From positions 1 to 64,000 of the forward strand of contig JAQTQB010000003.1 of assembly GCA_028712475.1 (NCBI GenBank): DNA of 64,000 bases, given 5' to 3'. Under the pieces are notes generated by a model that was not told the DNA's origin, made no database searches, and saw only the letters and a program-made list of their open reading frames with translations. Position 1 is the first letter of the stretch. Each line of letters starts with the position of its first letter. The DNA comes from Verrucomicrobiales bacterium. GTDB taxonomy: Bacteria; Verrucomicrobiota; Verrucomicrobiia; Limisphaerales; UBA11358. This document shows positions 2,839 to 52,975 of the stretch, one piece after another. The translations under genes and the position numbers were made by a program.

Positions 2839-3975
2839 CGTTTTCAGAACGGCTTCAACGACGCGCTCCACGCTGATGCCGTTCATGCAGCGGAAATCAA
2901 TCGGGCATTCGCGCAGAAAACACGGCGAACACGGTGCGTCGGATTTGATCAAACGGTGCCGCGCGTCGCCCGGCAAACCCGGCCCGGTCAGTTCCGGCGA
3001 CGTGCTGCCGAAAGGCGCGACGACTGGCGTGCCCAGCGCGGCGGCGACGTGCATGGGGCCGGTGTCGTTCGTGAGCAGGACGCGGCAAATCTTCAGGAGC
3101 GCCATGAGTTCGCGGAGAGAAGTCTGGCCGGACAAATTGCGGATTGCGGATTGCGGATTGCGGATTGCAGATTCGATTCGGGCGGTCAACTGAAGGTCGC
3201 CTTTGCCGCCGAACAAAAGCCAGGCGCAGTTTGTGCGGTTTTGAATTTCCTGCGCGGCGGCAATGAATCTTTCCACGGGCCAGCGCTTGGCGGGGCCGTA
3301 TTCCGCGCCGGGATTCAAGCCGAAAACCGGCCCGTCATTTTTCTCCAGCCCGAATTTTTTCTTCGCCGCTTCAATTTCATCCGGCATCACCGTCAACAGT
3401 GGCGCAAGCGGTTCAGGATTTGCACCCAGCGCGGCGGCGAGGTGCAGATACTCGTGGATATGATGTGCGTTCGTAACTGCGCACGGCAGAGCGTGGCTGT
3501 TTGAATCTGGCCGCTGACTGCCGCCAGCAGCCACGAGTTTTTGGATTTCCGCCGCCGTTCGCTTGTGCATTTTCACCGCGTTGGTGCGCGGCGCGACAGT
3601 TTGCGTCAGGAAAAAATTCCGCCACGGACGCGCGTAGCCGACGCGCTGCGGGATTCCCGCGAGCCACGTTTCAATCGCCGAGCGCGGTGAGTTTGGCAGC
3701 ACGAGCGCGAGATCAAATTCGCCGGCGCGCAGTTGTTTGCCGATGGAGAAAACGCCTTCGCCCGGCGCAAACGAAATTGTTTCGTTCACCGCCGGATGAT
3801 TTAGCCAGAGGTCTTTAAGCTTTTCCGGCGTGAGCAGCGCGATGTGTGCGTCGTGAAATTTCTCCCGCAGCCGCAGCAGCGCGGGCGTGGTCATCACCGC
3901 GTCGCCCAGCCAATTGGTGCTTCGCACCAAAATTCTGCGTGGATGGAGGATGGAGGATGGAGGATGGCTTGCCAT
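2833..3975 (-). CDS. waaF: ADP-heptose:LPS heptosyltransferase II-like (GT9)
   Basis: This glycosyltransferase family 9 enzyme adds heptose to the LPS inner core at the cytoplasmic face of the inner membrane. The core starts ILVRSTNWLGDAVMTTPALL, the hallmark WaaF N-terminus. Family blocks PAKRWPVERF and LLTNDTGPMHVAAALGTPVV follow, with a Cys-rich end (CSPCFLREC). I place the start at the ATG at 3975, inside a heptad repeat, giving 380 residues and the N-terminus MASHPPSSILHPRRILVRS. The open frame extends upstream to 4221, but that part is antisense-like shadow of lpxL. A second repeat adds [12 protein letters not shown] in frame (3136-3180), and the stop codon lies in a third repeat. lpxL ends 2 bases upstream, so the genes are probably co-transcribed. 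Confidence 0.92.
   Translation of the reverse strand: MASHPPSSILHPRRILVRSTNWLGDAVMTTPALLRLREKFHDAHIALLTPEKLKDLWLNHPAVNETISFAPGEGVFSIGKQLRAGEFDLALVLPNSPRSAIETWLAGIPQRVGYARPWRNFFLTQTVAPRTNAVKMHKRTAAEIQKLVAAGGSQRPDSNSHALPCAVTNAHHIHEYLHLAAALGANPEPLAPLLTVMPDEIEAAKKKFGLEKNDGPVFGLNPGAEYGPAKRWPVERFIAAAQEIQNRTNCAWLLFGGKGDLQLTARIESAIRNPQSAIRNLSGQTSLRELMALLKICRVLLTNDTGPMHVAAALGTPVVAPFGSTSPELTGPGLPGDARHRLIKSDAPCSPCFLRECPIDFRCMNGISVERVVEAVLKTV
3136..3180. repeat. Heptad tandem repeat (ATTGCGG) inside waaF
   Basis: At least four exact ATTGCGG units are followed by degenerate units (ATTGCAG, ATTCG, ATTCG). On the coding strand this reads as the heptapeptide NPQSAIR, in frame in waaF. The same unit on the same coding strand occurs in thiD at 52377. 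Confidence 0.95.
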
Positions 3976-6689: not shown

Positions 6690-7460
6690 TCAAACAGTAG
6701 CCGCTTCGCTGTTGAGAATCCAATCGTAACCTTTCGCCTCAAGTTCGAGTGCGAGGTCCTTGCCGCCGGTTTTCACGATGCGGCCGTCCACCAAAACGTG
6801 GACGAAATCCGGCACGATGAAATTCAGCAGCCGCTGATAATGCGTGATGACCAACTGCGCGTTGTCGGCGCGCTTCAAGGCGTTGACGCCGTGGCTGACG
6901 ACTTTGAGCGCGTCAATGTCCAGGCCGGAATCGGTTTCGTCGAGGATGGCGAGCTTGGGTTCCAGCACGGCCATCTGGAAAATTTCCGCGCGCTTCTTCT
7001 CGCCTCCGGAGAAACCTTCGTTCACCGAGCGCTTGAGCAGGTCTTCCTTGAGTTCGAGCAGCTTCATCTTTTCTTTGACGAGCGCGAGAAAATCAATCGC
7101 GTCAAGCTCCGGCAGGCCCTGATGCTTGCGGATCTCGTTGAAGGCGGCCTTGAGAAAGTAGGTGCTGTTCACGCCGGGGATCTCGACCGGATATTGGAAC
7201 GCAAGGAACAAACCTTCACGGGCGCGCTCCTCGGGATCGAGGTCGAGCAGGTCTTTGCCGCAATAAAGCACTTCGCCGGCGGAAACTTCGTAGCCATCGC
7301 GGCCCGCGAGCACGGCGGCCAGCGTGCTCTTGCCGCTGCCGTTCGGCCCCATGACGGCGTGGACTTCGCCCGCCTTGATGGTGAGGCTGATGCCTTTGAG
7401 GATCTGTTTGCCCTCCACGCCGGCGTGGAGGTTTTTGATTTCGAGGATGGTTTTGCTCAT
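6690..7460 (-). CDS. sufC: Fe-S cluster assembly ATPase SufC
   Basis: SufC is the ABC-type ATPase of the SufBCD scaffold that assembles iron-sulfur clusters in the cytoplasm. The 256-residue protein carries Walker A (MGPNGSGKSTLAAVLAG) near residue 38, the ABC signature FSGGEKKRAEIFQ near 150, and Walker B (PKLAILDETDSGLDIDALK) near 170, with the SufC-type Asp-Ser-Gly-Leu-Asp. Its ATG overlaps the stop of the HEPN-like gene by four bases. Translation of sufC may therefore depend on the gene inserted upstream. No sufD, sufS or sufU is visible nearby, so the rest of the pathway must lie elsewhere. Confidence 0.97.
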   Translation of the reverse strand: MSKTILEIKNLHAGVEGKQILKGISLTIKAGEVHAVMGPNGSGKSTLAAVLAGRDGYEVSAGEVLYCGKDLLDLDPEERAREGLFLAFQYPVEIPGVNSTYFLKAAFNEIRKHQGLPELDAIDFLALVKEKMKLLELKEDLLKRSVNEGFSGGEKKRAEIFQMAVLEPKLAILDETDSGLDIDALKVVSHGVNALKRADNAQLVITHYQRLLNFIVPDFVHVLVDGRIVKTGGKDLALELEAKGYDWILNSEAATV

Positions 7461-8041
7461 GTTGTAAAAAATTGTTTTGCCCGCGATACGTATGGTTGTT
7501 CAAGCCCACCAACATTAAGGAGATATTCTCCGTCTTCGTGCGGAATCAATTCTAAATACCTAGACCAGAGGTTATCAATGTGCCGGCTTGTCATTTTCTG
7601 AAGAGCCTCACACAAAATACAAATATTCTTAACGGCATCTGCTGTTGCCTTAAATCGCGTCACCAAAATATGAGTAATTTTTCCGTCTTTCCGAATAAAG
7701 CGGACTTGGTTCGCGCTACCGCCGTATTCGTCAAATTCTGGGGCATTAGCGTCCGTGTGTGCGTAAAGCCAACTCCTGAAATTTAGGGTTTCACTATGTA
7801 GTTTTTTATATTCTTCAGGAACTATGTCGTCAGTCAGTTTGCCCACGCCGCCGTAATTTTTCATGAAAGGACGGCTATATAAAACGTGAATCGCGACCAA
7901 AAGAGGATAAAAAGTAGGGGCTTCTTCGTTAAGTTTCTGTTCCAAAAAATATGTGCCAAGCTCTTGCGCTTGGCGAAAAGAATCACGAGCGTAAACCGTT
8001 TTCCAGAGCGTGCGTGCGTTGTTTAACTGGTCTTCTGTCAT
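7457..8041 (-). CDS. HEPN-like hypothetical protein inserted between sufB and sufC
   Basis: No family is recognised with certainty. The 194-residue, mostly helical protein contains RSWLYAHTD near residues 90-100. That matches the R-X4-6-H motif of HEPN ribonuclease-like proteins of toxin-antitoxin and defence systems. Its DNA is visibly AT-richer than sufB and sufC, which suggests transfer. I start it at the ATG at 8041 (MTEDQLNNARTLWKTVY), 13 bases after the sufB-tail stop, because the longer frame to 8086 would run into that fragment. It overlaps the sufC ATG by four bases. The HEPN assignment rests on one motif and helix content. It could instead be an unrelated helical protein. Confidence 0.75.
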   Translation of the reverse strand: MTEDQLNNARTLWKTVYARDSFRQAQELGTYFLEQKLNEEAPTFYPLLVAIHVLYSRPFMKNYGGVGKLTDDIVPEEYKKLHSETLNFRSWLYAHTDANAPEFDEYGGSANQVRFIRKDGKITHILVTRFKATADAVKNICILCEALQKMTSRHIDNLWSRYLELIPHEDGEYLLNVGGLEQPYVSRAKQFFTT

Positions 8042-8054
8042 GGGCTCGGTTTTG

Positions 8055-8156
8055 TTATCCCACGCTGCCTTCGAGACTAACACCAAGAAGTTTCTGCGCT
8101 TCGACGGCGAATTCCATCGGCAGTTCCTTGAACACTTCCTTGCAGAAGCCGTTCAT
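8055..8156 (-). pseudogene. Second copy of the sufB 3' end (33-codon ORF)
   Basis: From ATG 8156 to TAA 8055 this reads [20 protein letters not shown] and on to EGSVG. That is identical to the last 32 residues of SufB encoded at 8816-8914. Ten of those 32 codons differ, all synonymously, and the stop is TAA instead of TGA. The ORF overlaps the preceding antitoxin-like gene by four bases (ATGA), so it may be translated. It looks like the tail of a diverged sufB allele left by an insertion and not like a recent duplication. Confidence 0.9.
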
Positions 8157-8335
8157 GCCTTTGCCAGTTTGCGTTTCGGTTTGACGAGTGAAATTAGTTT
8201 GTGCCCAGAAGTTTTTTCGCGCTTCTGGACATCACGCAGCATGGCCTCGATGTCGAAGTTAAATTTTGCCGCGAGATGTTCCTTCGCTTTGCGAACCTCG
8301 GCGACAATCGGGTCTTCCCAAGTTTTTGTTTTCAT
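8153..8335 (-). CDS. Small protein paired with a PIN toxin (putative antitoxin)
   Basis: The 60-residue protein begins [21 protein letters not shown] recognise this pattern from small proteins encoded beside PIN-domain genes. It is acidic and helical at the N-terminus and Lys-rich at the end (KPKRKLAKA). It starts four bases after the stop of the frameshift-restored PIN gene, and its own stop overlaps the sufB-tail ORF. Its likely role is to bind and silence the PIN ribonuclease. That is inferred from gene pairing; no DNA-binding motif is evident. Here the partner follows the toxin, whereas many vapBC pairs have the antitoxin first. Confidence 0.8.
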
Positions 8336-8339
8336 AATT

Positions 8340-8812
8340 TTATTTTGCCAGCAATTCAGCCGGAGTGCAAATCACGGGGCAATCATGTCCGTGCGCGCGG
8401 CAGGCTTCGCCCATTTTGCCAAACATCGCGGCATTGGCAATATGGGCGCAGTTCCAGGTCATCAAAAATGCACGCCATAAATCGCCGAGAGCGCAATGTG
8501 CGTGGCGTCGCGGGCCGCCTTGGCCGGCAGCGGGCCGCTGCGGATCAATTGTTCCGCCAAACGAACCGTTTCAGGATTGATGGTGAGCAAAGGAAATGGC
8601 CGAAGCAATTCAAGCCGCTTTGCAGCCATTTGCGGCTCTCCAACTTTCGCCTCGTCCAGCACGACTTGCGAAATCCGGATGTCAAAATCGCCGCGCCTTT
8701 GTTCCCACCAATTTCGAGTTTGTTCCTGGTGCGCTGCCACAACCAGATCGCGACTTGGCCTGGCGACCAAATAACTGACGATGGTTGTTTCGAGATAAAG
8801 TTTGGCCTTCAT
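8340..8812 (-). pseudogene. PIN-domain (VapC-like) toxin gene, one-base frameshift
   Basis: The first frame (8812 to 8462) encodes 116 residues, MKAKLYLETTIVSYLVARPS onward, with PIN-type acidic positions in YLETTIV, VVLDEAK and ARDATHIALS. It stops just after YGVHF. The family continuation TWNCAHIANA follows immediately in another frame (8462 to 8340), ending CTPAELLAK. One extra T in the run at 8464-8468 (five A on the plus strand) would join them as HFLMTWNC, about 157 residues. Toxins of this family cleave RNA. The break may inactivate it, may be a sequencing error in a homopolymer, or could be translational slippage. The gene starts three bases after the sufB stop. Confidence 0.85.
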
Positions 8813-8815
8813 TTT

Positions 8816-10264
<1,449 letters not shown>

Positions 10265-23061: not shown

Positions 23062-23475
23062 CTACTCCATCCCGACCGGGCGGCGCGCGGCTTTCTTTTC
23101 GCCGTGTTTGGATTTGTCAGCAAGCATCCGGGCTTTGGCGCGACGGGAACGCTTGCGCTTCTGGCGGCGGATTTTTTCGATCTCGGCGCGCTGCGCGGCG
23201 ACGAAGCCCTTTTGTTTTTCCTCGATCTTGTCGAGCAGCAACCGGCGCGCGATGTAGCGGTTGAGCCCCTGCTGGCGGGTTTCCTGGCATTTCACCTGCA
23301 CGCCGGTCGGGCGGTGCAGCAGCATGACGCAGGTGGAAACTTTGTTCACGTTCTGCCCGCCATGCCCGCCGGAGCGGACAAAGGATTCTTCAATGTCAGC
23401 CTCGCGCACGCCCAACGCGGTCATGCGTTGCGCGAGCTGGTTTGCTTTTTCGAGGCTGACAGGGAGCGCGCTCAC
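23062..23475 (-). CDS. Peptide chain release factor-like protein (GGQ domain only)
   Basis: The 137-residue protein consists of the class I release-factor catalytic domain. The peptidyl-tRNA hydrolysis motif is [20 protein letters not shown] near residues 31-50. A strongly basic tail follows ([20 protein letters not shown]). It lacks codon-recognition domains, as do ribosome-rescue factors such as ArfB. Here it has [11 protein letters not shown] instead of the SSGPGGQNVNK of canonical ArfB, so it is better called RF-like. The GTG at 23475 overlaps the TGA of the upstream lipoprotein gene. The longer frame to 23640 lies opposite or inside that gene and is rejected. Confidence 0.88.
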
Positions 23476-23987
23476 GGCGTCTGGGCTGCCTGCATGGCAG
23501 CTACTTTCAAATTGTCCCTGATGTTGTTCAGAAGTTCCTGGTAAGGGCCGCTCTGCCAGCCATACAGCGGGAACGTCTGTTCGTTGACGAAGTCGCCGGG
23601 GCTGGTTATGACAAACGCCTTGCAGGAGAGCAGAAAGCAATTGACGCCCTGTGGCTGGATGCCCATGCGCACGCGCACGATGGTCCGTTCCCCTTCATGT
23701 GCGCCGACAAATCCGGCGTAAGCGATCTGTTCGCCCTTGGTGGCCTCTTTTTCGTAAACCTGCGTGCCATCGGAGAGCCGGATGGACTGGTAATTGGCGT
23801 TCGCAAACACGGCGTCGGCGGCTTGACGAATTTTCTCGGGGCTCTGGTTGTAAATGAACACCGACGCGAAACTGGCCGAGGCCGGCTTGTCCATCGAACG
23901 GCAGCCGGCGGCAAACAAGGCGGCAAGTATGCAGAGCAGTCCGGTCCGGCAGATGAACCGGGTGAAGATCAGGGAGGATGTGTTCAT
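23472..23987 (-). CDS. Hypothetical lipoprotein
   Basis: The 171-residue protein has a signal sequence with a lipobox ([20 protein letters not shown]), so it is probably an envelope lipoprotein. The mature part has mixed alpha/beta character ([20 protein letters not shown], then [20 protein letters not shown]) and resembles small DUF-type stress lipoproteins. I do not recognise the family. It overlaps the start of the release-factor-like gene by four bases (GTGA), suggesting translational coupling. Upstream lies a fragment of the cupin gene's 3' end. Confidence 0.85.
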
Positions 23988-24073
23988 GGTTTTGTGAATG
24001 GTTGAATTGGATTATTCCGTCTGCTCAATGCGACGATACGGAACTGTTTTCAGAACTGCCAGCGCAATTGCGT

Positions 24074-24122
24074 CACCGTCAGCGGGCCGTCGAATGTGGT
24101 CAGGCTGATGACTTCCGTGCGG
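24074..24122 (-). repeat. Copy of the cupin gene 3' end
   Basis: This 49-base stretch matches 25593-25641, the 3' end of the cupin gene, at 48 positions. On the minus strand it still reads TEVISLTTFDGPLTV, then continues TQLRWQF and stops, so its tail differs from the intact gene. More degraded similarity extends toward 24150. The two bactofilin genes lie between the fragment and the intact cupin gene. Confidence 0.85.
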
Positions 24123-24152
24123 TGCCGTGCGGACGCCTTTGCCAGCGCGGGG

Positions 24153-24866
24153 TCAAAGGAGCCGGGTCTGTTTGTTGCCTGCCTTCGAGCCGATGTTCAT
24201 TTTTCCGACGACCACCGCGCCCGCCTCCACCACCAAGTTCGCGGCATCCAGATTGCCGAAGAATCGCGCGGTGGATTTCAGGGTGACGGTTCCGGTCGCG
24301 TGCAAATTGGCCGCGAGTTCGCCGGCGATTTCCGCCGAGCCGGCCTTGATGACGTCCGGCCAGCGGAAATGGTTTTCCGCCGGGATGACCAGGTGCGCGG
24401 CGGCCAGGCTGCCCTTGATCTCGGCGGTGGAATAAATCGTCAGTGAGCGTTCAGCAGACAGTTTGCCGTGAAACTTTCCCTTGATGACGACCTCGCCGCC
24501 GATGGTTTCGGTGTTGAAAACATAGCCCTTTGGTTCAACCACGAACCGGCCCTTGGTCTTGAAATTTTTGGCGACGGCGTTGGTGATGTGGTAATCATGC
24601 AAGTCCAGGTAACGGCTGCATCGCTTGCACATTGTGGATTCGGCGCTGGCGGGAACGTCCAGCTCCGAGCCGCACTCGAAACAAATGATGCGCCGCAGAT
24701 CCAGTGCGCGTTCGGGTGTTTTTCGCGCTGGATTGAGGGCTTCCTGAACGTGAAAATGCCGGCCGCACTTCTTGCAGTTGGTGGAAAACGCAGCGCGCGG
24801 TTCAGGCTGCTGGTGGCCGCAATGGGGACAGGCCACCAGGACTTTGTCCTGTTTCGTTGCCGGCAT
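24153..24866 (-). CDS. Bactofilin with N-terminal double zinc ribbon
   Basis: The 237-residue protein has two zinc-ribbon-like modules before the polymer-forming domain. The first uses CPHCGH and CKKCGRHF. The second uses CFECGS and CKRCSRYL. From about residue 110 a beta-helical bactofilin domain follows (GGEVVIKGKFHGKLSAERSL, then TIYSTAEIKGSLAAAHLVIP). Bactofilins self-assemble into cytoskeletal filaments at the membrane in bacterial morphogenesis. The Cys modules could bind zinc, nucleic acid or a partner. It follows the plain bactofilin gene by 27 bases, so the two are probably co-expressed and may co-polymerise. Confidence 0.88.
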   Translation of the reverse strand: MPATKQDKVLVACPHCGHQQPEPRAAFSTNCKKCGRHFHVQEALNPARKTPERALDLRRIICFECGSELDVPASAESTMCKRCSRYLDLHDYHITNAVAKNFKTKGRFVVEPKGYVFNTETIGGEVVIKGKFHGKLSAERSLTIYSTAEIKGSLAAAHLVIPAENHFRWPDVIKAGSAEIAGELAANLHATGTVTLKSTARFFGNLDAANLVVEAGAVVVGKMNIGSKAGNKQTRLL

Positions 24867-24893
24867 TCAATGTGGGGTGCGCCGCGAGGCGGT

Positions 24894-25307
24894 TCAACGC
24901 TTGATCAGTTCGGGGGCTTTCGGCGGTTCGGCGGGTCGCGAGGGCGGCGCGATGGGCGCCACCTTGTTCGGGTTGACTTCCGTCTTGCCGACGAAGGTCA
25001 CGCCTTCCTCGATGGCGAGTTTCGTGGCGCGGATGTCGCCGAACACTTCGGCCTTGGCCTTGATTTCAATCTTCTCCTTGGCGGCGATGTTGCCGTTGAC
25101 CTTGCCGCGCACCACGACGGTCTGTGCGGCGATGTTGCCGTTGATGACGGCGCTGTCGCCCAGGTTCAGCGTGCCGTCCGTGTTGATATCACCGTCCAGC
25201 TTGCCCTCGAAGGTCAGTTCGCCGGCGAATTTGATGTTGCCTTTGATTTCAACGTCCGAGTTCAGGACGTTCTTGCTTGTGTTGCTTGTGTTCATGTTAA
25301 TGTCCAT
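24894..25307 (-). CDS. Bactofilin
   Basis: The 137-residue protein is a minimal bactofilin. The N-terminus is short and flexible (MDINMNTSNTSKNVLNSD). The beta-helix repeats follow, with VEIKGNIKFAGELTFEGKLD, then GDINTDGTLNLGDSAVINGN and VVVRGKVNGNIAAKEKIEIK. The tail is Pro-rich (APPSRPAEPPKAPELIKR). Such proteins form nucleotide-independent filaments that organise envelope growth or polysaccharide machinery. I start it at the ATG at 25307, with GGAG about 14 bases upstream; the frame extends to a TTG at 25328. It leads a two-gene unit with the zinc-ribbon bactofilin. Confidence 0.9.
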   Translation of the reverse strand: MDINMNTSNTSKNVLNSDVEIKGNIKFAGELTFEGKLDGDINTDGTLNLGDSAVINGNIAAQTVVVRGKVNGNIAAKEKIEIKAKAEVFGDIRATKLAIEEGVTFVGKTEVNPNKVAPIAPPSRPAEPPKAPELIKR

Positions 25308-25586
25308 AATTTTTTCGAGTCTCCGCAATTAGGGTTCGACACGCAACAATAGAAATACGCTCGAAATAATTCCACGCGAGCAGAAATTTTCCAGACCGGA
25401 AAGACCGGCGGCTGAACTTCCCGGCTACTTTGTTGTCGCACCGGCTCTTGTGCCGCTTGTCCCATGCCGTTGCCAGGCTGGTTTCAACAAGAATGGCAGA
25501 TTTGATTGTGAAAAATGAGATTGAATAAGTTCGGGCGCAGCGGGACGGAGTCAACAAACCAGGGTCTTGCAGCAATCCGCCGGGTT

Positions 25587-25916
25587 TCACGCCACGGTCA
25601 GCGGGCCGTCGAATGTGGTCAGGCTGATGACTTCCGTGCGGGCGATGTGCGGGCCGTGCTGCGTGCCTTTGGGCGCGAAAAACAATGCGCCGGTGGTGTA
25701 GGTCACGCCGGCTTCCTCCCACTCGCCGGAGAGGACGTAAGCCCATTCGTTGGCGAGCGGATGCGTGTGCGCCGGGATGGTGTGGCCAGCCTTGAATTTG
25801 CGCAGCACCACGACTCCGCCGGTGTCGGGGTGCTTGTGCAGCACAATCAACTCAACGCCGTCGTAAGGGCCGGGCTGCCAGGTTTTATCTTTGGCCAGGG
25901 CGACGTAGGGAAACAT
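25587..25916 (-). CDS. Cupin-domain protein (ChrR-like)
   Basis: The 109-residue protein is a single cupin barrel. Conserved positions include VVLRKFKAGHTIPAHTHPLA (metal-binding His residues), NEWAYVLSGEWEEAGVTYTT and PKGTQHGPH. It resembles the cupin domain of ChrR-type anti-sigma factors and of small acetylacetone dioxygenase-like proteins, so metal binding is likely but the activity is unknown. It starts four bases downstream of the glutaminase stop. Its 3' end is partly duplicated at 24074-24122 beyond the bactofilin genes. Confidence 0.88.
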   Translation of the reverse strand: MFPYVALAKDKTWQPGPYDGVELIVLHKHPDTGGVVVLRKFKAGHTIPAHTHPLANEWAYVLSGEWEEAGVTYTTGALFFAPKGTQHGPHIARTEVISLTTFDGPLTVA

Positions 25917-25919
25917 AAA

Positions 25920-27770
25920 TCAATCGAACAAGCTTAATTCACGGTTGGCCTTGCGCAGGCGGTGGCACAGGCTCAAGTTCAGGTTTTTGAGCAGTTTGAT
26001 TTTGGTGGCGGGATGCGAGACGCCCAGCCGGTCGAAATTATCGAGGCTCAACACGTCGCATTCCACTTCCGTGTCGGCCACGACCATGGCCGAGCGCGGC
26101 GCGCGGTCTATCGCCGCCATCTCGCCAAAGACCATCCCGGCGGAAAAGGTGGCCAGCCGCCGCCGTGCGCCGCCGGCCTGCGGGACAAAGACGCTCACGC
26201 CGCCGCGTGCGAGCAGAAAAATCTCCTGCGCCTCGGCGCCGATGTGGATGATGGTTTCGCCGGCCTTGTAGCTCTGCCGCTTGAGAAACGAGGCGAAGGT
26301 TTTAAGTTCGCCCAGCGTGAAATGATTGCACAGTTCATATTCCACGACCCGGGCCCGTTGCCGTGCCGGGCGGGCGGGCAGGACGTTTTTCAGAAGCCGG
26401 TTCTCGCACCATTCCAGCGCGAGGTCGTTGTCGTCGAACGGCTGGAAAAGTTTTTCAAAGCGTTTGCCCAGCTTGGCCTTGAGGTAACGCCGCAAGAGCG
26501 GCATGTGGCCGGTGTGGGTGAAGAGCACGGGTTTGCCCTGCTCCGCCAGCTTGAGCAGGATTTCGTAAAACAGGCGGCAGGCGCTTTCGTTGAGCGTGAG
26601 GACGCGCTTGAAATCGAGAATGAGCTGCTGCGTGGCGTCAAAATCGCCGATCACGTCGCGGACGACGGCCTCGGCGGTGATGAAACTCAAATGGCCCTGA
26701 AGCTGATAAACTTTGATGCCGCCGCCCGATTGACTCAACACCTGGCTTTCTTCCTGGGTGCGCACGCGGCTGGAATTCAATTCCGCGCCGGTGAACTTGA
26801 AGCGGATGGCGGACTTGCCGATGTTCGGACGGTTCAGCAGGTGCAGGTCGCAATGCCGCGAAATGGCGTCGCACACCTTGATCCCGCGCACGCTGTTGCC
26901 GTGCGCATCCAGCGGCGGCGAGAAGACGCCGATGCCGAGCTGCCCCGGCAGCACGGCGATGATCCCGCCCGCGACGCCGCTCTTGGCGGGCATCCCGATC
27001 TTGTAGATCCATTCCCCGGCGTAATCATACATCCCGCATGAACCCATCACGCTCAAAATGCTTTCGACGTATTCGCCGCGGATGGCCTGCTTGCCGGTGA
27101 CGGGGTTCACGCCGCGGTTCGCCAGCGTGGCGGCCATGATGCCAAGGTCGCGCGCGGTCACGGAAACGGAGCATTGCTGGAAATATAATTCCACCGACGG
27201 GATCGGGTCGCTGGTAAGAATGTCAAAGTTGCGCAGCATGTGGCCGATGGCGCGGTTGCGATGGCCGGTCTCGCTCTCGGAACGATAGATGGATTCATCC
27301 ACGGTCACGCCGTGTCCCGTGTAAAGCGCGAACATGTCCAGCAGGCGTTGCAGCCGCGTATGCGCCGATTTGCCGGCGATGAGCGACGTGGTGGCAATCG
27401 CGCCGGCATTGATCATCGGGTTGCGCGGACGGCCCGTGCCGGGTTCGAGGCTGATGGAATTGAAGGCGTCGCCGGTCGGCTCCATCCCGATTTTTTTCAG
27501 CACTTCCGTCCGCCCATTGTCTTCCAGCGCCAGCCCATAAACGAACGGCTTGGAGATGGACTGGATGGTGAACGGCTGCCGGGAATCCCCGGCTTCATAC
27601 ACGGCTCCGGTGGCGGTCACGAGGCAGATGCCGAACCAGTTTGGATTCGCCTTGGCGAGTCCCGGAATGTAAGTGGCCACGTCGCCATCCTTCACGGCGG
27701 CGAATTCGCGGTGCAGTTGTTCGAGATAATCCAGGACGGGCGAAGTCGGCGGCTTAGTTTCGGGCTTCAT
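25920..27770 (-). CDS. glsA: Glutaminase fused to STAS and cyclic-nucleotide-binding domains
   Basis: The N-terminal 310 residues are a serine-dependent glutaminase (beta-lactamase-like fold) that hydrolyses L-glutamine to glutamate and ammonia. The motif FTIQSISKPF contains the catalytic Ser-x-x-Lys, and GRPRNPMINAGAIATTSLIA follows. Residues about 340-455 look like a STAS domain (GIKVYQLQGHLSFITAEAVV, ending LILDFKRVLTLNESACRLFY). Residues about 485-610 are a CRP-like cNMP-binding domain (AGETIIHIGAEAQEIFLLAR, GMVFGEMAAIDRAPRSAMVV). No DNA-binding domain follows. The fusion suggests nucleotide or partner control of glutamine breakdown. The ATG at 27770 is preferred over one at 27794. Confidence 0.93.
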   Translation of the reverse strand: MKPETKPPTSPVLDYLEQLHREFAAVKDGDVATYIPGLAKANPNWFGICLVTATGAVYEAGDSRQPFTIQSISKPFVYGLALEDNGRTEVLKKIGMEPTGDAFNSISLEPGTGRPRNPMINAGAIATTSLIAGKSAHTRLQRLLDMFALYTGHGVTVDESIYRSESETGHRNRAIGHMLRNFDILTSDPIPSVELYFQQCSVSVTARDLGIMAATLANRGVNPVTGKQAIRGEYVESILSVMGSCGMYDYAGEWIYKIGMPAKSGVAGGIIAVLPGQLGIGVFSPPLDAHGNSVRGIKVCDAISRHCDLHLLNRPNIGKSAIRFKFTGAELNSSRVRTQEESQVLSQSGGGIKVYQLQGHLSFITAEAVVRDVIGDFDATQQLILDFKRVLTLNESACRLFYEILLKLAEQGKPVLFTHTGHMPLLRRYLKAKLGKRFEKLFQPFDDNDLALEWCENRLLKNVLPARPARQRARVVEYELCNHFTLGELKTFASFLKRQSYKAGETIIHIGAEAQEIFLLARGGVSVFVPQAGGARRRLATFSAGMVFGEMAAIDRAPRSAMVVADTEVECDVLSLDNFDRLGVSHPATKIKLLKNLNLSLCHRLRKANRELSLFD

Positions 27771-27852
27771 TGTAGATTGATGGATAAAGGGCAACCGCTT
27801 TATTTGCCCGTCAAATAATTACGCAATGGCCATGCCGCCGTCCACTGGAATT

Positions 27853-31844: not shown

Positions 31845-33407
<1,563 letters not shown>

Positions 33408-33493
33408 ACCACGGGTCCGAGGTAACAATCGGACTTCCGAGGTCGGACGAAGGTTTGAGAGTCAAATTTCAAACTGTTCGGATTTGGCTCAAG

Positions 33494-33535
33494 CTAATCG
33501 CACAATTCAATCTTCAAGGGCAATGCTCTTTGAAC
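33494..33535 (+). promoter_or_regulatory. 16S processing stem 3' arm and second boxA
   Basis: Bases 33494-33517 pair with 31706-31729. TGCTCTTTGAAC at 33524-33535 repeats the leader boxA, as expected for antitermination in the 16S-23S spacer. Confidence 0.75.
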
Positions 33536-33589
33536 AAACAAGTGAAAAAATCGAACGCTGACCAGCGCCGAGAATAAATTTATTCGTGT

Positions 33590-33665
<76 letters not shown>

Positions 33666-33685
33666 GCTCAGCTTTTACGCCGGGC

Positions 33686-33762
33686 GGGCGTGTAGCTCAG
33701 TTGGTTAGAGCATGCGCTTGATAAGCGCAGGGTCACTGGTTCGAATCCAGTCACGCCCACCA
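33686..33762 (+). tRNA. tRNA-Ile (GAT)
   Basis: The acceptor stem GGGCGTG pairs with CACGCCC. The anticodon loop TTGATAA carries GAT. The T arm contains GTTCGAATC, and CCA is encoded at 33760-33762. It follows tRNA-Ala by 20 bases, the reverse of the common Ile-Ala order. Confidence 0.97.
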
Positions 33763-33839
33763 CTTGTTTGCAACAATTTTCCGAAACCAGCCGCCGGAGC
33801 CTTGAAACTCCGGCAGCGCAGTTCGGTGCGTTCTTTGAC

Positions 33840-33850
33840 AACTACACATA
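33840..33850 (+). other. 5' arm of the 23S pre-rRNA processing stem
   Basis: AACTACACATA pairs perfectly with TATGTGTAGTT at 36874-36884, downstream of 23S. This is consistent with an RNase III processing stem around 23S. Confidence 0.7.
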
Positions 33851-33917
33851 GGTAAAACAAAAGTAGGGCAAAAATACAATTCGCCGAGTAGTCATCAGAG
33901 ATGATGATATATTTTGT

Positions 33918-36783
<2,866 letters not shown>

Positions 36784-36956
36784 TTTTTTATTAAACCAGT
36801 CTTAAACTTCGGTTTATGACTGCACGATAAAAGCGTTTTTAACTCGCGAATTGTAGTAGCTCGAAATTGTCCTTATGTGTAGTTTTCAGGGAATCACCGA
36901 ACCGCTTCGGATATGATCTTTATAAATTTTGCACGGTTGAATCCGTGCTAATCAAT

Positions 36957-37070
36957 TTGGTGGCCATAAAGCTGTGGTCCGACCCGTTCCCATTCCGAAC
37001 ACGGCCGTCAAACACAGTCTTGCCAATGGTAGTGGTTGTATAGCTTCCGCGAGAGTAGGTTGCCGCCAGT
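36957..37070 (+). rRNA. rrf: 5S ribosomal RNA
   Basis: GGTGGC at the start pairs with GCCGCC at the end. The inner sequence CCCGTTCCCATTCCGAACAC is the conserved 5S loop. The 174-base gap after 23S (36784-36956) holds the 23S processing arm and no gene. Confidence 0.92.
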
Positions 37071-37076
37071 CTTTCA

Positions 37077-52085: not shown

Positions 52086-52975
52086 AGAAAATCCAACCGC
52101 GATCCATCGCACTTACCATCGCCGGCTCCGACAGCGGCGGCGGCGCAGGCATCCAGGCCGATTTGAAAACTTTCGCCGCGCTCGGCGTTCACGGCACGAG
52201 CGTCATCGCCTGCCTGACCGCGCAAAATCCCAGACACGTCCTCGGTGTCGAACCGTGTTCTCCCAAAATGCTGCGGCAGCAAATCGAAGCCGTGTTTGAA
52301 GAACTTCCGCCGGCGGCGGTGAAAACTGGAATGTTGTTCTCGGTTGAAAATATTGCAGCGGTCGTAAATTTTTTTGGCAATCCGCAATCCGCAATCCGCA
52401 ATCCGCAATTGGTTGTTGACCCGGTGATGGTTTCCACCAGCGGCGCGCGGCTGCTGCAGCCGGCGGCGGAGAAAATCTTGAAGGAAAAATTGCTGCCGCT
52501 CGCTGTGCTCGTCACGCCGAACCTGGACGAGGCTGAAATCTTGACCGGACAAAAAATTTCATCCATCGAAGCCATGCGCGCGGCGGCGCGGGAAATCCAT
52601 TCGCACTACGGCTGCGCGGCGCTGGTGAAAGGCGGACACCTGAAAAGTTCCCGCGAGGCCGTGGATGTTTTCTTCGATGGCGAAACGGAACTGCTGCTCT
52701 CCGCGCCGTTTGTGAAAGGCGTGTCCACGCACGGCACCGGCTGCACTTATTCGGCGGCGATTTGCGCGGCGCTGGCGCTGGGGCACAGTTTGCCGCACGC
52801 GGTGGAGATCGGGAAAAATTTTATCACGGCGGCCATCGCCAACAGCTATCGCATCGGAAACCACTTTGCGCTCGGTCAGGTTTCGCGGGACACGCTCAAA
52901 AATTCGGGCGGCGCAGGCGGAAGAACTGGTTCGCGTTCGTCGTGTTCAGCTTTAGGCTGTTCATGTTGTTCGTGA
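52082..52975 (+). CDS. thiD: Hydroxymethylpyrimidine/phosphomethylpyrimidine kinase
   Basis: ThiD phosphorylates HMP and HMP-P in thiamine synthesis. The 297-residue protein has the ribokinase-type opening [44 protein letters not shown] and the catalytic anion-hole region [21 protein letters not shown] heptad repeat (52377-52410) adds [10 protein letters not shown] in frame just before LVVDPVM. The C-terminal tail [20 protein letters not shown] is encoded by DNA opposite the end of the convergent subtilase-like gene (80-base overlap) and looks non-native. The GTG at 52082 overlaps the preceding stop. Confidence 0.95.
52377..52410. repeat. Heptad tandem repeat (CAATCCG) inside thiD
   Basis: Four CAATCCG units and a partial unit lie in frame and encode [10 protein letters not shown]. 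It is the same unit as in waaF at 3136, read on the same strand. Confidence 0.95.

Follow-up and report, generated by a model that had tools for sequence, protein, structure and literature searches.

In the 64,000-nucleotide stretch of DNA analysed here (the window), a cupin gene is followed by two bactofilin genes and then by a second copy of its own 3' end. The stranded cupin end is probably the scar of an insertion anchored at the end of the cupin gene. The locus also appears likely to belong to a class found throughout the genome, in which one to three compact cargo genes lie at the stop codon (less often the start codon) of a conserved gene, between two copies of the end of that gene. The features of the locus are as follows:

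25587..25916, minus strand: intact cupin gene (the target gene), 109 amino acids; Pfam Cupin_7 3e-16, Cupin_2 1e-7
25590..25641, minus strand: direct repeat, copy 1; the last 52 coding nucleotides of the intact cupin
24894..25328, minus strand: bacA, bactofilin ORF with a likely start at 25307 (cargo gene 1); PF04519 3e-27
24153..24866, minus strand: bacB, bactofilin with an N-terminal zinc-ribbon-like region (cargo gene 2); PF04519 1e-18
24071..24122, minus strand: direct repeat, copy 2; the stranded cupin 3' end (scar), identical to copy 1 at 50 of 52 positions
23472..23987, minus strand: small lipoprotein-like gene, the next gene past the cupin scar; name read from sequence
23062-23475, minus strand: peptide-chain-release-factor-like (RF-like) gene, after the lipoprotein-like gene

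The match reported in the first-pass annotation, between 24074-24122 and 25593-25641, was reproduced by realignment at 48 of 49 bases (98%). Drawn longer, the repeat covers 24071-24122 and 25590-25641 and contains an exact core at 24078-24122; a 44-nucleotide repeat core occurs at only two sites in the window, where shuffled sequence is expected to give 0.00. Orthologs of the cupin in 34 relatives are 63-91% identical to it, with conservation extending up to ..GPLTV. In the stranded copy the cupin reading frame continues through RTEVISLTTFDGPLTV, after which it encodes TQLRWQF before a stop at 24050. The single mismatch among the 49 bases is synonymous, and the tails are so nearly identical that donor and native copies are indistinguishable at the cupin, where the argument from diverged alleles developed below consequently does not apply.

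Between the two repeat copies lies the bactofilin pair and nothing else genic. Both bactofilin genes are intact, share the orientation of the cupin and score above the PF04519 gathering threshold. The bacB stop codon precedes the scar by 30 nucleotides and the C-terminus of the protein (..GKMNIGSKAGNKQTRLL) is conserved among congeners; the scar is therefore not bacB sequence, and an origin as a portion of that gene was ruled out. A cupin fragment close to a cupin gene, in the same orientation, could in principle have been left by a decayed tandem paralog, or by local tandem duplication and subsequent deletion. The similarity, however, is limited to 52 nucleotides at 96-98% with sharp ends, no further sequence of a second cupin lies beside the fragment, and the native end of bacB flanks it on one side. 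The decayed paralog was rejected on the limited length and sharp ends of the match, and the finding of this arrangement at dozens of other genes unrelated to one another, each of which would need its own coincidence, makes this whole group of origins very improbable.

The order of genes on the minus strand is M16 peptidases, glutaminase, cupin, bacA, bacB, cupin scar, lipoprotein-like gene and RF-like gene, where the M16 peptidase and lipoprotein names are those we presume from our own reading and the remaining families are from Pfam. In three congeners (G042, G012 and G037) the RF gene directly follows the cupin and this type of bactofilin pair is lacking, while in three others (G021, G022 and G024) the pair is conserved at other loci. 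These data indicate that in the present genome (G000) the bactofilin pair was added behind the cupin. In G045, the closest relative as judged by SufB (96%), synteny extends over the M16 peptidases and the cupin, and unrelated DNA follows the cupin. A search of the relatives for an exact empty cupin-lipoprotein site returned none, because the lipoprotein gene, which is also different, separates the scar from RF; likewise, none of the cupin loci examined in relatives contained a duplicated cupin tail. In G065, a member of another family, an RNase H-like gene (rnhA), bacA and bacB lie between two tails of a mannose-1-phosphate-guanylyltransferase-like (manC-like) gene, which span 54 nucleotides at 87% identity and both terminate in a stop codon. 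Bactofilins have thus been the cargo of such an arrangement at least twice. On the other side of the cupin, between it and the M16 peptidase genes, the glutaminase at 25920-27794 is fused to STAS and cyclic-nucleotide-binding domains; this fusion gene is missing from the corresponding position in the closest relative.

The first-pass annotation had likened the cupin locus to sufB in the same window. The order of gene, insert and tail is indeed present at both, but the sufB match is of a different kind, being diverged and almost purely synonymous. The relevant features are:

8816..10264, minus strand: sufB (target gene), PF01458; the last ~99 nucleotides form repeat copy 1
8462..8812, minus strand: PIN-like toxin-type ORF (cargo), beginning 3 nucleotides past the sufB stop; weak PIN match, E 0.008, below the Pfam cut-off
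8153..8335, minus strand: putative antitoxin ORF (cargo), whose stop codon abuts the sufB scar
8055..8153, minus strand: stranded sufB 3' end, synonymously diverged, with its own stop codon TAA (TGA in the intact gene)

The tail repeat pairs 8059-8153 with 8820-8914 at 89% identity. Of the 102 positions compared, 14 are mismatched between scar and intact end (11 third, one second and two first codon positions), and the encoded residues are identical except at the boundary. In congeners sufB is followed by sufC with no second tail, the second tail being present only in this genome among the loci read, and the two tails are equally distant from the sufB of the congeners. A further ORF of ~200 amino acids (7457-8042), with an ATG near 8042 that is at most ~15 nucleotides past the sufB scar, extends up to sufC; as sufB adjoins sufC in congeners, this ORF may be older cargo at the same site. 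Elsewhere in the window, the stretch at 31845-37071 lacks long ORFs because it holds a complete rRNA operon on the plus strand (16S, two tRNAs, 23S and 5S). Runs of a 7-base unit at 3136-3168 and 52377-52410 are mutually inverted copies ~49 kb apart, and similar 7-base arrays occur at 3941, 56068 and 61597.

A scan of 2.36 Mb of this 3.4-Mb draft genome, made with home-made gene calls, showed that duplicated gene ends are common. Isolated repeat pairs spaced 0.3-5 kb apart were direct in 70 cases and inverted in 12, and at a score of at least 40 the counts were 32 and 0. Removal of within-gene repeats and paralogous genes left 47 pairs, 45 of which have a spacing of at most 4.2 kb. These 45 non-paralogous pairs have a median length of 62 nucleotides (25-427), a median spacing of 993 nucleotides and identities of 80-100%. 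In 19 of the 45 a repeat that reaches into a gene has its edge within 10 nucleotides of a stop or start codon, compared with a mean of 2.9 and a maximum of 10 in 400 trials of random placement. Cases at gene 5' ends, in which the similarity runs from the ATG onward (C17:118706 and C17:321339), mirror those at 3' ends. The 45 pairs may not all form one class, as some are intergenic and a few may be ordinary duplications. The longest scar is a thrS-like 3' end of 427 nucleotides (89% identity), which lies 3.7 kb past the intact gene (C9:127850-131997).

The genome search suggested in the first-pass annotation, for gene ends that recur downstream, thus yielded many further cases, far above both the inverted-repeat and the random-placement controls. 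That annotation had named a lack of other cases, or descent of the fragment from a decayed paralog, as grounds for abandoning its view; the genome holds further cases, and the paralog origin fails on the 52-nucleotide extent and sharp ends of the cupin match. Its proposal of a common integration route at gene 3' ends agrees with the many cases in the genome and with the reappearance of some of them at the same genes in other species of the genus, and needs amending in that 5' ends are also used and many tails are diverged alleles. The mechanism that it offered as an example, a single crossover of circular DNA, is one possible route; neither a circle nor a donor fragment was seen as an intermediate. 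Chance or an error of assembly might be considered, given that the assembly is a draft of 29 contigs. The shuffle expectation of 0, the differences between copies and between their flanks, and the recurrence of the same arrangements in independently assembled genomes mean that this explanation can in practice be dismissed.

The targets are largely conserved genes and include what we take, from the sequence and with no database assignment, to be msrA, guaA, murA, purQ, sufB, hisF, ahcY, thrS, purC and mtnA. The cargo is mostly toxin-antitoxin-like, with other selfish modules besides. Pfam matches in the inserts comprise ParE toxins, PIN, HicA, HicB, DUF5615, an IS200-like (Y1) transposase, Bro-N, RibD_C and a hydrolase, and the guaA, hisF and sufB inserts give nucleotidyltransferase-like and PIN-like matches below the cut-off. 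Among 17 curated 3' cases the cargo is co-oriented with its target in 15, and the median gaps are 30 nucleotides from target stop to cargo and 23 nucleotides from cargo to scar. At purC the start of the cargo toxin gene lies inside the purC stop codon.

Many of the stranded tails have the character of alleles rather than of decayed duplicates. When 22 gene-end pairs were pooled, mismatches at codon positions 3, 2 and 1 numbered 68, 22 and 19, a bias that is to be read with the provisos that the intact gene accumulates synonymous changes too and that individual pairs are short. In several pairs the stop codon is kept and its type switched between the intact gene and the scar (sufB TGA/TAA, ahcY TAA/TGA and purC TGA/TAA). 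The third-position bias and the swapped stop codons point to an origin of many tails as alleles from elsewhere. In two cases it is the intact tail that looks foreign, on the basis of anomalous identities: that of hisF is 99% identical to G027 and G029 against 84% to G045, and that of murA is 96% identical to G015 against 81% to G045.

These data bear on one alternative, which is an insertion that creates a long target duplication whose functionless copy decays afterwards. Long, variable direct repeats, on the order of 100 bp, are described around some restriction-modification units (PMC3874152, PMC1643837), and the cupin pair (48/49), together with several others at 98-100%, would fit fresh duplications. 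A duplication process blind to genes, however, would be expected to place its edges at stop or start codons less often than is observed, and neither the third-position bias nor the exchange of one stop codon for another is the mark of neutral decay. In addition, the second purC tails described below, which have nearly the same starting base and differ in spacing, would require that one segment was duplicated repeatedly. Simple target duplication is therefore insufficient for all loci, and its plain, neutral form was rejected for sufB and for the pooled set on the strength of the third-position bias and stop swaps; as a general account it is unlikely. It is possible for near-identical pairs such as the cupin.

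Recurrence at the same genes in other species provides further insight into the class. Related cargo and a second guaA tail are present in G000, G035, G003 and G037, the cargo in G035 being 80% identical in DNA. G000 and G035 share the first base of the second tail, and the DNA past it differs. Empty guaA sites occur in G042 and G004, where guaA is directly followed by a YjbQ-like gene, and the same YjbQ-like gene is positioned past the guaA scar in G000 and G003. Partial second purC tails lie 0.6-1.1 kb downstream of the gene in G000, G012, G035 (two copies), G021 and G022, all starting at query nucleotides 37-40, and a partial second tail is also present in G009; the tails that begin at query nucleotides 37-40 differ in spacing. 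The toxin gene found at the purC stop codon of the present genome occupies this position in G000, G012 and G035, and elsewhere in the genus has only distant relatives (38-40% identity, in four other genomes). Partial second murA tails were found in G000, G028 and G022, and second hisF tails in G000, G009 (three copies) and G022. The guaA loci were read as sequence, and the purC, murA and hisF tails outside G000 are coordinates of search matches. By such coordinates there are apparent arrays of three hisF ends in G009 (C276:100-1634) and of three purC ends in G035 (C44:25036-26257).

The near-fixed tail boundaries at purC and guaA, together with tandem arrays such as that at purC in G035, are also what site-specific integration by trans-acting recombinases would produce, where the attachment site is a gene end restored on integration. 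The anatomy matches, in that the gene is restored on one side and a remnant lies on the other, and islands are known to occupy guaA. A search of the cupin, sufB, guaA and purC inserts revealed no integrase; an integrase-like fragment is present in one other insert (C9:347264-348013) and the remaining inserts are without one. The targets, moreover, are dozens of unrelated genes, and no common motif was seen at the inner boundaries when alignments were inspected by eye. Integration of this kind is made less likely by the lack of an integrase and of a visible motif, and we regard it as improbable. A tail boundary shared by several species could alternatively reflect one old insertion that was inherited and often lost.

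The reading that we prefer is an insertion anchored in the target gene. At the cupin, the bactofilin pair would have been placed behind the gene by recombination that used its conserved 3' end, leaving the cupin intact and a second, 52-nucleotide cupin end on the far side. We infer that the step is homologous recombination within the conserved target gene, the donor being DNA from a relative that carried the gene with cargo behind it. The far end may be formed by illegitimate joining inside the old gene end, or by entry of the unit's own copy of the gene end through homology. The same combination of cargo and tail boundary recurs in different species, and this suggests that some units may travel with a gene-end copy, which would serve as the far homology arm or be the product of excision and re-entry; shared boundaries favour such a copy, or common descent with losses. 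The homologous step, the joint travel of cargo and tail and the order of events are conjectural to this extent. A bolder version of the proposal, which we put forward tentatively, is that these units are recombinase-free mobile cassettes. Each would join a small number of compact cargo genes, co-oriented in most cases, to a copied end of one housekeeping gene, and this end would act as a portable homology arm. Such cassettes would enter the same gene across species, restore it, ride its operon, stack into arrays and exit without trace through recombination between gene ends.

The loci bear on the question of how toxin-antitoxin pairs of the chromosome, and other small selfish genes, can move in the absence of a transposase. 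With ~45 scars in one genome, and target-specific tails that recur across species, this question becomes directly testable, as each tail names the gene that the unit used and, where diverged, may show which of the two alleles is the incoming one. Should tails and cargo travel together, genes could spread simply through the recombination system of the cell with the host gene unharmed.

Our literature search for toxin-antitoxin cassettes tied to duplicated gene ends returned related works only, and the class shares features with several known systems. Integrative elements at gene 3' ends, such as the islands at guaA, restore the gene end on one side and leave a remnant on the other. The loci described here likewise have a restored gene end and a remnant on the far side, but differ in that the unit contains no recombinase, the cargo is 0.5-1.5 kb and dozens of genes are targeted. 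In Vibrio cholerae, type VI effector-immunity modules undergo stepwise displacement, for which homology-facilitated illegitimate recombination has been proposed (PMC5361080). There, as here, incoming DNA is anchored by a conserved upstream portion, the former 3' end is displaced downstream as a remnant and arrays result. A homologous anchor on one side is present in our loci, as conserved target genes with diverged second tails, and at the other junction no motif is seen by eye, yet the boundary is common across species at guaA, purC and murA. The V. cholerae system, however, involves one variable effector locus (PMC5361080), whereas the present loci are housekeeping genes, dozens of them and unrelated to one another, which encode an unaltered product and have foreign cargo behind them. 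In Microcystis MaOC1, two 152-bp direct repeats enclose a ParDE-like module (PMC7935541), which shares with our loci a toxin-antitoxin pair directly behind a gene and long flanking direct repeats. In contrast to the scars, the MaOC1 repeats are identical and start 14 bp past the stop codon, and hence contain no gene end (PMC7935541).

The closest resemblance is to insertion with long target duplication (Nobusato et al. 2000, as cited in PMC3874152 and PMC1643837), which concerns selfish modules with no known transposase flanked by long direct target repeats of variable length. Long, variable direct repeats are equally a feature here (49-52 nucleotides at the cupin, 25-427 nucleotides in the genome set). 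The present class differs in that its repeats end where conserved genes stop or start, and in that many of the copies are alleles that have diverged through synonymous changes. Its cargo consists mostly of toxin-antitoxin-like genes, and its target genes are shared between species, where tail boundaries are nearly fixed and arrays occur. The class thus resembles insertion with long target duplication, and is distinguished from it by the precision with which gene ends are used, by tails that are allele-like and by recurrence.
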